Below are positions 54,301 through 62,653 of a DNA stretch of 64,000 nucleotides, in pieces. Under the pieces are notes generated by a model that saw only the letters and a program-made list of their open reading frames with translations, made no database searches and was not told the origin of the DNA. Both the position numbers and the translations under genes were made by a program. The stretch lies in the NCBI RefSeq assembly GCF_020382885.2, contig NC_058511.1, positions 4,619,501 through 4,683,500 of the forward strand, written 5' to 3'. Numbering within the stretch: position 1 is the stretch's first letter; each line of letters starts with the position of its first letter. Source of the DNA: Scatophagus argus (Eukaryota > Chordata > Actinopteri > Scatophagidae).

Positions 54301-57300
54301 TAAAGCCTAGCCAGACTAATTATTGGTCATTGCAGCTGTGGGGTTCATACCTTTTGACAGCCCCCCTCCATGTGATCCCCAGCGACTCGTTAACAACACA
54401 CCCGGATGGCAGAAAAAGAAGTTACAAGTCATCAGAATTATTTATGAGCACCAATCCCTTCAGCTGGTCTCTTGTCTCAGACGAGGACCCGCAAGTCATT
54501 TAGCCAGCAGTTACTGCTGTTTTCATAATATATTTAGGAAAGTATCCTCCTTACCACACCATTTCTTTAAGGCACATCAATGAATGGAAGGAATTTGTAG
54601 CATTACTGTCACCAGAATTAAATTGAGATGACAGATTCCAGCAAATGTACTATAGAGTAAAGACCAAATTTGAGGCAATGTTTAATTGTCCACACTTTCA
54701 GCTCGTGTGTTGATTGACTTGGTGAATCAGAAAAATCTGCCTGATTTCAGTTCAAGTTTGTTGCTCTATCCAAAAATGTCTAAATATATATTTACTGCGG
54801 CAAAAATGGGCCCCAGCTGGGACCTGCCTCTAAAATTGTGGGATTGTCTCACTGTCTGTCACTGTCATGTCAAAAAACAGAGCTCAGATCAGGAAGGTTG
54901 AGTGGAGAAGGTCTTCCAGGAAATATTAAAGAGCCATAAACACACTCAACAAATAAACTCCTGGCACACAGTTTTTGTAGTCAGGAGAGGAGCTCAAAAA
55001 ACACCTTGTCATCACCTCTTTCTTTCTCCTCTCCTTTCTAATCTCTTTCCCTCCTTACCTCCTTGTTTTTCTCTCCTTCCGTCCTGCAGTATGTTCCTCC
55101 AGACCTATGCATTTGTAACTTTGTGCTGGAGCAGTCCCTGTCAGTGCGGGCCCTGCAGGAGATGCTGGCTAACACTGGGCAGAACAGCGAAGGGGTGAGT
55201 ACTTCCCTCCTCCTTCACACGCATGCACACAAATCAATCTGCGATCTAGCAGCACAAAATGCCCTTTAATGTTTTCTTTACATGATAGGTTTCGATTAGA
55301 TGTCCCATACTCCATTTTCATCATATCGCTTTTCATATCTACTGAAGCCTGAGACAGATTCTGCCTGTGACAGATTAATGTTAACTGTTTTCGATGTCAC
55401 ATAATTTTTTAGCTAAAGGGATATTAGTGAACTTGAAAAGAATTACTAGTAGTAGTAGTCACACTATTGGAAATAGAAATGGACTGAATTTAGTGGAGGC
55501 CTCTCAGTTCAAATACTTGAAAATGGCCTGATTGGAAACGCTTCAGGCATTTTTTAAGGCCAACCAATCAAGGCCAAGTCCAGCCAGGATGCTTTTGCTG
55601 TTGTTTCCAAAATGATGCATTCAAACGTTTTATAGAAATAGAACCTTTTACAGAATAAATGTCAGATTGGGAACCAAATATAGCACCACTTTGTGGAGGT
55701 GCGTGCCCAAAATATCGACTTGCCACATTACAAAGATACTCTTTACTAAAAGTGATTTTTGGGTACTTTAATGTTACAAACCAAATAAACATAACTAGAA
55801 AAGAGTGTATAATATCAGCACACAAAGAAACCTGAACAACAAAAAGATTTTTTTTTTCTCTGTGAGAAAAAAACTAATAAAATGCTTTGCACCATCAGTT
55901 GATTCTCCTCTGTGTGTTTTCTGTTTTGAAAGGTATGGTCTTTCGCAGTTGAATGTAGGTTTTTGTCCCACTACTGAGCATTTTTAAGTCTTGGAAAGTC
56001 CATTAAAAGTTCAAATATTTTAAAAAAGTAACAAAAGTAACTGATCAACCTTTACCCATAACAATGCCTGTGAATCTAAGAACTGACTAACCAGAAACAG
56101 GCTCCATTTAGGCACAATATTGAATAAGGACACCAGATCTAATGCATCATTTCATCTGTAAATTTTGACTTTGATAAGTGAATGTTAAAAATCAATGAGT
56201 AGGTTGGATCAAATCCCAACAGCAAGCAGACAGCATACCTAGTGATACTCTAAACTACTTTAACGGCAAGAACGGATGATTTCTGAATAGAAGCTGTCTC
56301 TTTTCATCATCTGTTACACACTCCACGTTTTGCAAAAAGAGATCAGAAGGCTCTGATAACGAAAGGCTGTCGGGGGTCAAAGAAAGGAGGGAAATTATCT
56401 GTGAGTTCTCTGCTGCATCCACAGCCTCCTTTCACCTCAAACTCCACTCTCTTGATTTACGCTAAACAGTGAGCTCCCTTCCTCCCCAGCTCAGCTCCAG
56501 CTCACTTGGCATGGTTATTAGAGCAGGTAAGTAAGCCTTGATTGGGCAGACCCTGTGTAGTGCCACAGGAGGGTGTCATCGACAGCAACGAAGCCACTCC
56601 AGTGGGCTGCGCGTGGTCTGTGAACCCCTGTCGGATGCTCATATTCACTCATGGTGTTGTGCTCTAATGGAGTCATTACATGTGTCATTTAATCTCATCA
56701 CCCAGCAGTAGATCCAGAGAGGGCAGTCAAGAGAAGGAAAGGGAGGGCATCACCCCTGTTTGGACAAAATGTTGAGCCCATATCTCTTAATATGTTCTGG
56801 GGAAAAACTGAGAGAAAACAGCGCTGAATTCTCAAATAGATCCTGGCATTAAATGTACACACATAAGCCACTACATACAAGAAATTGTTAGTGGTGGTGT
56901 TTCCCCCCCCATCACTGCTTCCATTAGATGCATGTGGTCTGTGTTGATTTTTGAAAGCACTCTTGATGGGTCCGAGTATGATCATTAATATTAGTCAGTA
57001 GTTAATAGACCACTGGTATCTAGGAGCAGAGATGACACAGTAGCATGAATCATTGTGTTGCTGCAGCAACTAGAGAAACCTGACGACTTCACACAGTATT
57101 ACGCTGCTATTTGCAAGGTGAATCGAGTACAAAATGCCACAATACTAATGCAAGATAGCCCAGACTGTGTTGTGCTGGATGTCTCCGGCTACCAGCGTAC
57201 TTCCATGCACAACATAGCCTTCCTGCACAGACTGGTGTCTTATTTATTTATTTATTTATTTATTTTATACAGCTTGGGTCCTCTCCACTGGTGATTCAAG

Positions 57301-60300
57301 CCTGCATTGTTATTAGCCTGGGTAGCAGATTTGTTTTGTGCTCAACAGTGCAACATTGTTGGCTGGCCTTGTTTGGCAAGACAGACAACATGATGCTGGC
57401 CAGAATACAAACTCTCTGATAGCAAGGCTAATAAATCACTCTCGTCTTCCTTTTCACTGCAAGGCCCCAATTTCTCTCTATTGCTGCTCTCAGATTTGTA
57501 TAATTAACTGCCATACACCCCAGTGACAAATTCTTTTTATTTGTATTTGTGTGTTACTAGAGTGCTGACCATGAAAAATGGGTAGGTCCATCGGTTCTTT
57601 CATCCATCATGTTGTCAGTGTGCATGACGGACTAACAAACAAAAAGGCTGAACTTTCGGCACTTTCACTTGAAGTGACGTCCATTTCTTGATTGCCATAA
57701 AAGCGGCCTTTATAGAGTGTACAACATTTAGTTTAAAAGTCCATGGCAGGTGCTGCAGTGTAAGGGGGAGCTAAATGCAACACATTCCAGTTTTTCCACC
57801 TCACCACATATTGTGCAAATAGACATTAAAAAACACATTTACTTCTGTGTAAACTCTCGCTGGACAGTAAATTAAGCTTTCATTTCAACATAACATTCCC
57901 ATTTTAACACATAACACTCTTTCCCAGACAGTCTGAAAACAATCAATGAACTTGTCACAGATGCATCTGAGCTTTAAACTATGGCAATCTTGAAATAGAC
58001 ATCTACTGGTGCCGTCACCTTGTGCATATGAGTCAAATGTTTAACCTCGCCTCTGAAGACTACTTGTGCACCCACTTTCAAGTGAGCATCTCGTTCTCGT
58101 TATCCTTTTTTGGGGTTTTAATGCAATAGGATTCAAGCTTTAATGTACAGCTTAAAATGTTTGTGCTCTTATCATTAAATGTTGCTCGTCAAATGTATTT
58201 TAAGGATCTGAAAACCCATATGATGGCAGAAAACTCACTTTGTGGTTTCGGGTGTGTTGCTCTGTTTTCTCTTGGTTTGGTCTCTCTAACATCGATTAAT
58301 TTTGAGGGTATTGACACGAGGAAATGTCCTGAAATCAGTTTTGGTTTCAGAGTGTCCACATGCACTACTGTTGAGCAAAGCTGTCGCAGATGACTCAAGG
58401 GTTATTTATCTTTTCTTCATATACCACAAAAGCACTACACTTTTTATTTTTACATCATCCACCTTTGGATGGTGTTTCTGTTTTTATTCCTCTCAAATGT
58501 CATATATATGTATTACACATCATGGTGTACATATTTATGAAGTAAATGGAAAGCATTGGGTGTTATGTTGAAGATAAGCTACTGATATGAGGTGAACATT
58601 TAGCTATTACTTGATCATAGTTTGGTGTAATGGCTCGGTTGGGCTTTAGCAAAGAAAAGGCGGCCACTATTTAATTCTTATGCTTCTCTTTGCTAAAGCC
58701 CTATTTAATTCCATCTGTTTTAATCAGTTTGCATTTTGCACTGGGCCATTAAGCTGCTTCTAAAGTAATCAACAGAAAATAAATCAGTTACATAGATAAT
58801 GAATTAAAATTTTATCTTTATCTCTTTTCTTTATCTTTTTCATGATAGTCACCAGTCACAAATTAGCAGACACACACACTTTACAGGAATTAAAATAATA
58901 ACAAATTTAATTGGTAATGCAAATAATTATTAATAATTATATTAACACAGCAGCATTATTTCCTGTACGTTTACTTTTGATGCCAATGTATATTGATGTT
59001 AAAACTTCTATACTTATAGGTTTCTTAAGTAAGATCTCTCGGGTTTTACTTGTAGCAGCGTATAAATATGCTGTTGCTATTTTCGCTTAGACCTGAGTAA
59101 AACATACAAGTAGCCCTCTTCTTCCGGCTGGTAGTGCGGAGGGAAAGTGAGTCACACCTGATGAGGTTACTTTGACATGGCACAGTTAGTGGAAATACTC
59201 GGATAGCCTACAAACGAACAGCGACTGAAGATGTATTCTTACGATTATAAAGCAGGCAGGCTAAAAAAAATCCTATAACTGGTGACAGGGATCAGTACAG
59301 ATGACCAAAGCACGTATGGCGTAATGAGGTCACACATGCATGTTGCTAAAAATGAGCTAATGCTGCTAGTACTTAACCTGAACGAGAATTATGTTAGCAT
59401 TAAATGTTCGATGCTAACATCCGTTGAAGATTCTCTTCTCTGTACTTAACGAAGGGCAGCGAGTTCAGGTGCGTACAAGATAAACGTGACTTTTTCCAGT
59501 TAAACTTCAACCCATAAAAAGAAAAAATAAATAAATAAATAAAAATGGCTGTCGCATAATTAACGTCGTAGCTCATCTAACGTCAACTACTGGAGCGGAA
59601 GTTAGCTTTGTTGCATCAGTTATTAAGCTAATTTAAATATCCCCGAAATATAGCCCAGATTTATTATAATGCCTTTTCTTGTGGAAAGATGGTTGTTTCA
59701 ACTCTATGATGATTTTTGAGGCTGTTCGTGGGGCTGTTGAATTACACTGCATATTGTAGAGAGGTAATTTTAATTTCATCGTCTAACGTTAGCTTTCCTC
59801 AATGATGCCAATGGGACAGTGAATACAAAGTTTATCAGGCAGCGTTGCACCCATTTTAAAGTAACTGTAGCGGTAGCTTACATAAACTGGCAAGAGAGTT
59901 GGGTTCAGCCATCACTGAATTCTCATTACTTGTTGCTGAGAGGTTTACAATAACCTACTTGTTATGGTTTTGTTTTCTCAATTTTTTGCTCCACATGCCT
60001 AAAAGCAAAGCGATTCAGAAACATGCCATGCGTTCATAAGGGTTAAATGGTGTATCTTATTGACTTGCTGTTATGTAAATATTAGTTGAGTATCTGCTAA
60101 GTGTTTTCTGGCTGTGACCTGCCATGCCATCTACCACGATATAAAGAATTATTGTTCCTAACTAGCTCTGACCTGGTGCAAGATGTTGACCTGGGAGCCA
60201 GTTAAACTTAGGAAAAAAACTTGCAATATTCATTTTAAACACAACTTGGTATACAGGCATCCAGGCATCCATGCATGCACACACACAAATGTCCCTGTCT

Positions 60301-62653
60301 TTGTTTCTAACTCAGCTGCACTCACAGTAGAACACTGTTTAGGATACACTAGGTTACAACTTAAGGGGGTGACACCAAAGCAAAGGTCACAGTTCCTGGC
60401 AGTGATGTGTCAGCATGACAGCAGGCCTGAAATACTGGCTGGCTCCCTCTACCCCTCTCTCTGTACCCCTCCCTTACTCCCAGCTGTTGCTGGATACTCT
60501 TCCCATTTTTCTTCTGATCGAACTCTTTCCTTTTTCGTCCGTCTTATACAAGCCACCTGGGAGAAACTTGTTAGCCAAAAGAGAATTAGTTTGAGGTTGT
60601 ATTCAGGGGAGCATTGGGAGGTCCTTTTAGGTCAGTTTAAATGTGACCCCACAGGCAAACACGCAAATTAACGCTGACAACTGGACAAGAAAGAGGATAG
60701 CCTCCTTATATTGCCTGTTGGGTAAACACCGCAATGTGCGTCACACCGGTTAACACAGTCCCAGTCCTGTTTCTATAAAGAGTTTAAATATTGTTTGTCC
60801 CCATAAAAGATAGCCAAACCCGGTAGACTGGAAACTCTAAATTAACTGCAAGTGAGAATAGTGTGTCTGTTCATAGCCCTAATAATAGAAACTTCCATTG
60901 CGACAATGAGAATTGGGCACCAGAAATAAGTATCTGACCACTGGGCTAAATTGTCCCTTAATGTTAACTATTTGTAACAATTTGTAAATTTGTTAGAATC
61001 CTCTAATGAAAAATCATTTCATAAAAATCAATTGATTTGAAAGTGAACTGACTCATTGCGGCTGTAGACCTGTTCTGGATTCGTAGTTTTTAATCCAACT
61101 CATAATGCTAAAACCACATCAAAACTGTTCAGACATCATTTAGATATTAGCTCTTATGGTCCCTTTTCTTTTTCTCTTCTGCCGCTAGAGGTTGATTAAA
61201 AGGGTAAGTAAGAATCTTTTTCATTCATTTCAGTGGTGGTGAAGAAATCATATCTGTTCTTTTTTTGCTCAACTATTTTTTTTTTTCACATTTCCTCAGC
61301 CATCGTGCTACTGTGTATCATAATTATTCTTGTTTGTCACAAGAATGGGCAAGCTGTCAAATGAGTGTGGACATGGTTATGTTTGTGGGTTTGTTTGATT
61401 GTGTGTGTAGTTTTGTGTGTTTCCCTTTCTCTGTTTTGGACTGTTTCCTGCTTGCATTTGGAATGGGCGTCCGAAGTTGAAGTTACCATTTCAATCCCCT
61501 GCAGTTTACCCACTCAGGGTCGAAAGCAGAGGAAAATCTCAACTTGATATCTGAGCTAGAGGTTACTAACTTAGGCTATATGGATGCGATATGTCAAGCT
61601 TGACAGGGTCCAGAAGGGTGCTGTATAATGACATGATGATTATTTATTACCTTTGTATTTTCTGGCAGGCCGGTCAAGGGGGTGGACACCGGACCCTGCT
61701 CTACGGTCACGCCATTCTCCTTCGTCACTCCTTCAGTAATATGGTGAGTACCAACAATGGAATTTGATGAATAAATAAAAGCTGAACATCTTTACATTTA
61801 AGAGTCTGAATATTTGGTATTTTTTAACTCAAACAATAACTTAACAACCAGATTGTTGCCAATTGATTATATTCTTAGTTATCTAAACAAATAATGGACT
61901 CATCATTTTAGCATTAAATATACAGCATATAAATAAATAATTTGTCATATTTTTATTGAACATTTGAGCCAAGAGCTGATTTCCACTATCGGTTTTTCTT
62001 AGTATTTCCTGCTGCTTCCTTAACTAATTTTTCACTCACCAGTACCTGACCTGTTTGAAGACATCAAGATCTCTGACAGACAAGCTGTCGTTTGATGTTG
62101 GACTACAAGAAGATTCAATAGGTACAGTATGACTAACAGGCGCTTTGATCGTTCATGTGGCTTTTTACTGGTTTTAATTGAGTCCAGTCCTCCCGAGAAG
62201 CCATTTCAGGTCAACCTAACCTTGACATCTTGAATCAGTAACCATGGCAGAAGTAGTAGTAACTGTGGTCTACGCTACATTTGACATATGAGCTACTGAA
62301 ATTTGTTAAGGCCTTTTATCAAGTGTAAATGATTCTTCAGCTGCTGTTACAGTCCTCCTTAGATCACATCCTTTTTTATGCTTTTAGCGCACCCAGTCTT
62401 TTTTTCAACAGAGAGGAATCAGGATTGTCTGAAATGACACATGTATGACTGTGCTGGACAATAGCCCAACCTTAATACATGTGTGTATTTTACTTTATCA
62501 TCAATATATTAATGGTGTTTTTGTGTATTTCTGTCAATAGGAGAGTCCTGTTGGTGGACCATCCACCCTGCATCCAAGCAGAGATCTGAGGGAGAGAAAG
62601 TCCGCATCGGAGACGACCTGATCCTTGTCAGTGTGTCGACAGAGAGATACCTG
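37108..62653 (+). CDS. ryr3: Ryanodine receptor 3, first exons (partial, runs off the right edge)
   Basis: Coding exons 37108-37155, 49962-50081, 55090-55194, 61669-61743, 62043-62121 and 62541-62653 are in phase and give 180 residues, or 185 with the candidate microexon 61189-61203. RyR3 is a tetrameric calcium-release channel of the sarcoplasmic and endoplasmic reticulum, about 4,870 residues, so only the cytosolic N-terminal domain A is here. [16 protein letters not shown] matches human RYR3 except for one missing glycine; the extra Gly-Glu-rich start separates it from RYR1 and RYR2. Family-wide blocks follow: [85 protein letters not shown]. The last visible residues are STERYL at a GTAGGT donor. 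All junctions have consensus GT/AG. Intron 1 is 12.8 kb. Confidence 0.95.
38680..38830. repeat. Possible dispersed repeat sharing TTTCCCATAATGCA
   Basis: ATCCTTCATTTCCCATAATGCAACTTCATAG resembles the block near 12530-12560 (TACATTTCCCATAATGCATCTC). The shared core and its context suggest two diverged copies of one fish repeat. Boundaries cannot be set by eye. Confidence 0.3.
44649..44680. repeat. (CA)n microsatellite
   Basis: About sixteen CA units in ryr3 intron 1. Confidence 0.9.
45343..45379. repeat. (TGTC)n microsatellite
   Basis: About nine TGTC units in ryr3 intron 1, the clearest tetranucleotide array in the window. Confidence 0.9.
45760..45935 (-). mobile_element. tRNA-derived SINE, minus strand
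   Basis: GGAGTCGAACC (45849-45859) is the reverse complement of a polymerase III B box. The preceding AGATATGACAGGAAATGGGGG and GAGAGAGGGGAAGACTCGCAGCAAAG are the known body of a percomorph SINE read backward (usual form: GACAGGAAA..GGGGGAGAGAG..GACATGCAGCAAAGG). The A-box side is disrupted: AGTCGAACCTGA occurs twice close together, a local duplication. Confidence 0.65.
46911..46947. repeat. (CA)n microsatellite
   Basis: CA-rich run interrupted by two TG steps, in ryr3 intron 1. Confidence 0.85.
49311..49358. repeat. Alternating purine-pyrimidine (CG/CA/TG) tract
   Basis: About 48 bp of nearly uninterrupted alternation with CGCG steps (ACACGCATGCACGCGCACAT and so on), about 600 bp before ryr3 exon 2. 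The sequence is of the type that adopts left-handed DNA. Confidence 0.8.
50082..55089 (+). other. ryr3: ryr3 intron 2
   Basis: Five kilobases of AT-rich intron with one deleted Tc1-like element (51556-51930). No other gene was recognised; the acceptor is preceded by a long T/C-rich tract (55015-55088). Confidence 0.6.
51556..51930 (+). mobile_element. Second deleted Tc1/mariner-like element
   Basis: Inverted ends: left TACACTATGTAGATAAAAGT, right (reverse complement) TACACTATGTGGACAAAAGA, bounded by TA. The first half is nearly the same as the copy at 35851 (shared GCATACCAAGACATTTTGGA and CCAACTTTGTGGCAACAGTT), but the transposase C-terminal block is missing through an internal deletion. 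Non-autonomous. Confidence 0.8.
57238..57265. repeat. (TTTA)n microsatellite
   Basis: Seven TTTA units in a ryr3 intron. Confidence 0.9.
58641..58701. repeat. Inverted repeat / hairpin, 15-bp perfect arms
   Basis: GGGCTTTAGCAAAGA (58641-58655) and its exact reverse complement (58687-58701) with a 31-bp spacer. Past one mismatch, pairing continues three more bases, giving an 18 of 19-bp stem and a 23-base loop. Confidence 0.85.
61189..61203 (+). CDS. ryr3: Candidate 15-nt microexon of ryr3
   Basis: AGGTTGATTAAAAGG (R-L-I-K-R) is framed by a strong T/C-rich acceptor (CTTTTTCTCTTCTGCCGCTAG) and a consensus donor GTAAGTA. It is exactly five codons and sits between phase-0 exons encoding NTGQNSEG and AGQGGGHRT. 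As I recall it, human RYR2 has extra residues (ending FMMK) at this place from very small exons, while human RYR3 does not. Inclusion may be optional, since skipping keeps frame. Confidence 0.6.

Follow-up and report, generated by a model that had tools for sequence, protein, structure and literature searches.

A putative pair of microexons in intron 3 of ryr3 from Scatophagus argus at the position of RYR2 exons 4 and 5

Intron 3 of the ryanodine receptor gene ryr3 from Scatophagus argus, which encodes a calcium channel, spans about 6.5 kb and contains a 15-nt stretch that has the appearance of an exon. This raises the question of whether the stretch is a coding exon of the channel or a chance combination of splice-like signals and, if it is an exon, whether its inclusion is regulated. 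The locus was studied in a stretch of 64 kb, which is called the window in the following. An original prediction had placed in this intron a microexon that inserts the pentapeptide RLIKR between the protein sequences SEG and AGQGGGHRT. Its coordinates, sequence, length and phase are all as claimed (Table 1): the five codons AGG TTG ATT AAA AGG are free of stops and in phase 0. Exon 3 ends at position 55194 with a complete codon, followed by gtgagt, and the exon at 61669 begins with the codons GCC GGT CAA. Both flanking boundaries thus fall between codons, so that RLIKR is added without a change of frame, precisely where the insertion had been expected.

Table 1. Positions of ryr3 exons, splice sites and sequence motifs within the 64-kb window
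Feature	Position	Strand	Remark
ryr3 exon 3 (105 nt, phase 0), last residues NSEG	55090..55194	+	aligned to residues 57-91 of RYR2
21-nt microexon SADHEKW, homologue of RYR2 QVDVEKW	57561..57581	+	homologues on C21, C14 and C5, weaker on C15
TGCATG (RBFOX motif)	57621..57626	+	starts at +40 after the 21-nt exon
ACTAAC	57631..57636	+	presumably a QKI/branch-point-like motif
Acceptor of the 15-nt exon	61159..61188	+	pyrimidine-rich tract, UGC at 61180-61182 (starts at -9), CTAG
15-nt microexon, AGGTTGATTAAAAGG = RLIKR	61189..61203	+	site of RYR2 KFMMK; homologue RLIRK on C15
Donor of the 15-nt exon, GTAAGTAAG	61204..61212	+	
ryr3 exon after the 15-nt exon, 75 nt, AGQGGGHRT..., phase 0	61669..61743	+	

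Strong splice sites at both ends had been predicted as well, and the pyrimidine-rich acceptor (GTCCCTTTTCTTTTTCTCTTCTGCCGCTAG, immediately 5' of 61189-61203) and the donor GTAAGTA bear this out. Scoring was based on frequency matrices of vertebrate splice sites; the acceptor and the donor of the 15-nt exon reached 9.7 and 10.5 bits, respectively, compared to 9.9-12.8 and 9.8-11.3 bits for exons 2, 3 and 4. The assignment to ryr3 was correct too: the N-terminal chain has its best match in PDB in a chain with the name Ryanodine receptor 3, and the gene groups with RYR3 in the tree described below.

How often do such sites arise by chance? Among the in-frame, stop-free pairs of 3-30 nt on both strands of the 64 kb, the 15-nt exon alone reaches both of its own scores, and none of 400 introns simulated with a first-order Markov model contains an in-frame, stop-free pair of this strength; the use of the exon's own scores as the threshold flatters it in this strict test. 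When each threshold was lowered by 2.5 bits, the window yielded a second pair, and 5.25% of the simulated introns contained at least one. A relaxed scan of the 64 kb (length 3-51 nt; minimum scores of 7 bits for the acceptor, 9 bits for the donor and 18 bits in total) yielded nine pairs, the 15-nt exon included, with six on the plus and three on the minus strand. Three of the eight other pairs use one common donor in ryr3 intron 3; they are 26-37 nt long and stronger than the 15-nt exon, the strongest of them being located at 56490-56526 (37 nt). One other pair ends at the genuine donor of the exon that follows. Among the eight, no pair combines a length divisible by three with the absence of stops. 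Since nine pairs of up to 51 nt reach 18 bits within the 64 kb, splice-site strength is ruled out as sufficient proof, and the support that the original prediction drew from it does not suffice alone.

A similar restriction applies to the peptide. RLIKR occupies the site of KFMMK in RYR2, and the two score 4 in similarity; an equally similar AG-15-GT frame is present in 64.4% of simulated introns, which rules out this similarity as proof. In ryr3 intron 3 itself, the frame KLLVV at position 56882 scores above RLIKR in likeness to KFMMK. Peptide similarity and splice scores combined were matched in one of 1500 simulated introns. The homology of the 15-nt exon to KFMMK rests on position, length and the copy RLIRK on contig C15 (see below).

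RYR2, the ryanodine receptor of the heart, carries the 12 residues QVDVEKW-KFMMK between SEG and TAQGGG. We take QVDVEKW to be encoded by the 21-nt exon 4 and KFMMK by the 15-nt exon 5. These exon sizes are supported solely by the 21-nt frame HVDVEIW in the ryr2 of this genome. Exon 3 of RYR2 encodes residues 57-91 (PMC7570887), which places the start of the following exon at the Q of QVDVEKW. The predicted position is therefore equal to that of the extra segment in RYR2, which follows SEG (residue 91) and precedes TAQGGG. The original prediction had described this as a short extra segment; the segment is indeed present, but it comprises 12 residues, and the ryr3 intron has a counterpart of both tiny exons.

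The counterpart of the 21-nt exon lies in the same intron, upstream of the 15-nt exon, and had no place in the original prediction. A scan of ryr3 intron 3 for in-frame, stop-free small exons of 3-87 nt, with cut-offs of 3 bits for the acceptor and 4 bits for the donor, gave eight candidates, among which RLIKR ranks first and SADHEKW sixth. The splice sites of SADHEKW are modest (3.8 and 6.7 bits). Among the 28 AG-21-GT frames of the intron, it has a similarity score of 24 to QVDVEKW, the next best frame scoring 4. A frame of this kind as similar to QVDVEKW as SADHEKW was found in one of 1500 simulated introns, a frame with at least four identities in two of 1500, and the same similarity together with equal splice scores in none of 1500. 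Intron 3 of ryr3 thus contains two in-frame, phase-0 exons, 21 nt and then 15 nt in length. The site between the exons encoding SEG and AQGGGHRT, the phase, and the order and size of the two exons are common to ryr3 and RYR2. The 21-nt exons match in four of seven residues as well as in length and phase, and both KFMMK and RLIKR follow the pattern basic-hydrophobic-hydrophobic-x-basic. In contrast to RYR2 exons 4 and 5, the ryr3 pair belongs to another paralogue, has a diverged 15-nt peptide and weaker sites at the 21-nt exon, and is predicted from the DNA sequence.

Homologous loci were then collected from the same assembly (570.7 Mb); all homologue comparisons are thus comparisons of paralogues within one genome. 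The search gave 29 matches on six contigs, namely C19 (which holds the window), C15, C21, C14, C5 and C10. In a tree calculated from about 150 residues together with human sequences, C19 and C15 group with RYR3 with support values of 99/98, and this is the only one of six branches that satisfies both support limits. C14 and C5 group with RYR1 (93/90). C21 is nearly identical to the RYR2 sequence in the tree, yet no supported fork joins them; C10 is divergent. According to summed tblastn bits, C21 is nearest to RYR2, C5 and C10 are nearest to RYR1, and C19 and C15 are nearest to RYR3. C14 scores higher with RYR2 (350) than with RYR1 (330), contrary to its place in the tree. On C19, gremlin lies upstream of ryr3; on C15, a gremlin paralogue lies about 75 kb from the ryr3 exons, on the same contig and strand. 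Because gremlin and ryr3 are neighbors on both contigs, C15 most likely represents a duplicate ryr3. Two ryr3 copies have been reported for most teleosts (PMC3262159).

That the 15-nt piece codes for protein and is under selection as an exon is supported above all by the duplicate. In the shared exons of C19 and C15 (164 codons), 148 residues are kept, and 36 of 74 four-fold sites differ. The third introns of the two copies gave no significant alignment (best E value 0.61). In intron 3 of C15, the top-ranking of 23 small-exon pairs (3-51 nt) is 15 nt long; its sequence AGGCTCATAAGGAAG encodes RLIRK, and its sites score 7.1 and 11.9 bits. Compared to RLIKR, the residues L and I are kept by means of synonymous changes, and the final two residues, K and R, are swapped. 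It is this homologous exon in the second ryr3 copy that lifts the 15-nt exon above chance. In C21 (ryr2), C14, C5 and C10, no 15-nt exon was detected under the criteria used, which were an AG-15-GT or GC frame with a basic-hydrophobic-hydrophobic-x-basic peptide and, for each intron, the nine best-scoring small pairs plus the two AG-15-GT frames most similar to KFMMK.

The 21-nt exon is more widespread and is kept in four, perhaps five, of the six RyR loci. In C21, it encodes HVDVEIW and is second by splice score in its intron. The ryr1-like loci C14 and C5 both encode AVDLDKW, which is the first of three by splice score in C14 and only the third in C5. The candidate in C15, TRGPDRW, is weak; its peptide has drifted far and it is fifth by splice score. 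Another C15 frame, RICVFVW, resembles QVDVEKW more closely than TRGPDRW and has a poor acceptor. The combination of splice scores and peptide similarity seen for TRGPDRW was matched in none of 600 simulated introns. In the divergent copy C10, a 21-nt exon was not found. When a ryr1-like chain that includes AVDLDKW is aligned to solved RyR2, the alignment runs straight across VDVEKW (the three best of 63 matches, all of them RyR2). The matched stretches of the solved RyR1 and RyR3 chains are shorter than RyR2 at this segment. The original prediction had assumed that mammalian RYR3 has no such segment; the solved RyR3 chain, for which the match names no species, does lack the insert.

The introns were also inspected for motifs of splicing factors. 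The hexamer TGCATG, which is bound by RBFOX factors (PMC4317164), occurs at the identical offset of +40 after the 21-nt exon of C19 and after the C15 candidate. The C15 intron is rich in this motif (7 in 4238 bases), which puts the probability of a hit at one given offset at about 0.0017; this value takes no account of the six motifs inspected, and the offset was picked after seeing the data. C21 contains just a GCATG, at +75 of its 21-nt exon; in C14 and C5, neither TGCATG nor GCATG is present within 200 nt downstream of the 21-nt exon. Neither motif is present within 200 nt downstream of the 15-nt exon, and RBFOX control of the latter was rejected on this ground. The 200 nt that follow the C15 candidate contain no ACTAAC. 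At positions -15 to -6 of the acceptor, TGC occurs in five of seven microexons compared to one of 24 other exons (Fisher p 0.0007; the 24 exons are from five of the six RyR loci, with C10 and exon 2 of C21 left out) and compared to 44 of 231 pyrimidine-rich AGs (p 0.005; for this background, the interval was wider by one base); again, the interval was picked after seeing the data, and the paralogous rows are non-independent. The 21-nt exons of C19 and C21 have no UGC in this interval. In the acceptor of the 15-nt exon, TTTTCTTTTTCTCTTCTGCCGCTAG, UGC starts at -9, between the pyrimidine tract and the AG. YGCY, which is the motif of MBNL, occurs at -9 and -6 of this exon. As judged from its sequence, the UGC upstream of the 15-nt exon fits both this MBNL motif and the layout of Srrm4-dependent exons. 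In zebrafish microexons, the Srrm4 layout is described as a UGC between the pyrimidine tract and the AG (PMC12626420).

Taken together, we estimate a probability of roughly four in five that intron 3 of fish ryr3 contains an ancestral pair of cassette microexons that tune the N-terminal domain of the RyR. That both microexons are real exons is very likely, and we consider it likely that they are alternative rather than constitutive. In line with this, the role of a regulated switch is plausible from the motifs and from exons 4 and 5 of mouse Ryr2, which we take to be the 21- and 15-nt exons. An increased inclusion of exon 5 only was reported for Mbnl1-deleted and E18 mouse hearts (PMC4356957), skipping of exons 4 and 5 for CUG-repeat mouse hearts (PMC8021116), and mis-splicing of both exons in a later study of the same model (PMC13232024). 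The ryr3 pair also resembles the regulated vertebrate microexons that depend on Srrm3/4, RBFOX or PTBP1: its members are likewise at most 21 nt long and in frame, with a UGC after a pyrimidine-rich tract at the 15-nt exon and a UGCAUG downstream of the 21-nt exon.

Three other explanations have to be weighed. The 15-nt piece might be a chance splice-like pair in a 6.5-kb intron that is never used, as could be argued from the eight strong pairs that accompany it in the relaxed scan (up to 51 nt), with one stronger set in the very same intron, and from the fact that the candidate exon is known at the level of DNA. Yet C15 keeps the length, the frame and the pattern RLI[KR][KR] within an intron without significant alignment, the upstream 21-nt companion is homologous to QVDVEKW of RYR2, and the eight other pairs include none that is a multiple of three and stop-free, which together make a chance pair highly improbable. 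Alternatively, the exons could be decaying relics that were once used and are now rarely spliced in ryr3. The missing insert in the solved RyR3 chain, the drift of the C15 21-nt peptide to TRGPDRW and the failure to find such an exon in the divergent C10 agree with decay. However, both 15-nt frames have strong sites and encode the same class of peptide in spite of 36 differences at 74 four-fold sites between the two copies, and we consider relics improbable.

The exons might finally be real but constitutive and form the normal loop of fish RyR3, without any switch. For this possibility speak the splice scores of the 15-nt exon, which are like those of its neighbors, and the presence of the 21-nt exon in at least four of the six RyR loci. 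Very short exons, however, often need helper factors. Two elements known from regulated microexons, UGC and UGCAUG, occur here, and exons 4 and 5 of mouse Ryr2 are alternatively spliced, so that a purely constitutive pair appears unlikely.

If the pair of cassette microexons is accepted as the best explanation, the following mechanism can be proposed. The pair would have been inherited from before the split of the vertebrate RYR genes, because the 21-nt exon is also present in the ryr1-like and ryr2 loci. We infer that both microexons are transcribed and follow a tissue pattern, and their inclusion singly, together or not at all would lengthen the loop of domain A by 5, 7, 12 or 0 residues. 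RBFOX proteins bound to the UGCAUG at +40 may favor inclusion of the 21-nt exon, whose 15-nt neighbor may be controlled by a factor reading UGC (MBNL in muscle or heart, or Srrm3/4 in neurons) just upstream of it; we give this choice of regulators an even chance. The length of the loop would then alter the contacts of domain A with its neighbors and, as a consequence, the opening of the channel.

With respect to structure, domain A of RyR2 contains the dynamic helix alpha-2, which comprises residues 95-104 (PMC7570887) and goes back to Amador et al. 2013, as cited in PMC7570887 and PMC9168041. The helix is reported to be absent from RyR1 and RyR3, where the loop is shorter, and upon deletion of exon 3 of RYR2 a helix of this region turns into a beta-strand that replaces the lost one (PMC7570887). 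Judged by its position in the sequence, the ryr3 insert would overlap helix alpha-2, and the inserts fall in the same loop. The inserts may supply a segment that overlaps the dynamic helix of RyR2. A helix-like role of the ryr3 segment is a tentative proposal, to which we assign somewhat less than even odds.

The ryr3 pair is a counterpart of the known RYR2 exon 4/5 microexon pair. The words 'ryr' and 'ryanodine' do not occur in the main text of the zebrafish microexon papers PMC12626424 and PMC12626420, and among the literature matches listed, which cover few subscription journals, we recognized no description of N-terminal microexons of ryr3 or ryr1. The ryr3 microexons may already be present in automatic gene models. 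The segment that has been described as specific for RyR2 is probably an old module that is shared by vertebrate RyRs and controlled by splicing. In a more far-reaching version, which in our view is equally likely to be right or wrong, all vertebrate RyRs inherited the 'RyR2-unique' helix alpha-2 as a module that can be switched by splicing. Fish ryr1 and ryr3 would keep its microexons, retention and loss would differ from paralogue to paralogue, and in mammals RYR1 and RYR3 would have lost them or hold overlooked copies. Should fish ryr1 and ryr3 splice this module, the removal of a single tiny exon in a fish would allow its effect to be studied. Helix alpha-2 would then no longer be a feature of RyR2 alone but one that is included in RyR2 and optional in the others.

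The ryr3 intron of the window that holds the 15-nt microexon also contains a pair of very strong splice sites, which score 11.2 and 12.7 bits and enclose 37 nt. Because this length is no multiple of three, the pair may represent a poison exon or a pseudoexon. In C15, the second ryr3 copy of the genome, the nine top-ranked candidates given for the corresponding intron include no 37-nt pair.

Positions of the features in the window and in the other RyR copies
Feature	Sequence	Position
Apparent gene order	Window	1553-37155
37-nt splice-site pair	Window	56490-56526
Second TGCATG of 21-nt candidate	L022 (C15), reverse complement	5176
RLIKK frame	L022 (C15), reverse complement	5364
Divergent RyR copy	L026 (C10)	7557100-7558750

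The C15 intron contains AGACTGATTAAAAAA immediately 3' of an AG, approximately 160 nt downstream of the 21-nt candidate. Its translation, RLIKK, resembles the peptide of the 15-nt exon, but the scoring donor yields a length of 16 nt. This frame may be a decayed duplicate or a chance match. The second TGCATG of the 21-nt candidate lies within the acceptor at -10; RBFOX bound at such a position would be expected to act as a repressor.

The apparent gene order in the window, with names assigned by ORF reading alone, is ARHGAP11A, SCG5, GREM1, FMN1 (minus strand) and RYR3, which resembles that of human 15q13-q14.

No microexon was detected in L026, the divergent sixth RyR copy. A gremlin-like gene is located on the opposite strand at a distance of about 0.2 Mb from this copy. 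Given the RYR2-GREM2 gene neighbourhood, this suggests that the C10 copy is a second ryr2.
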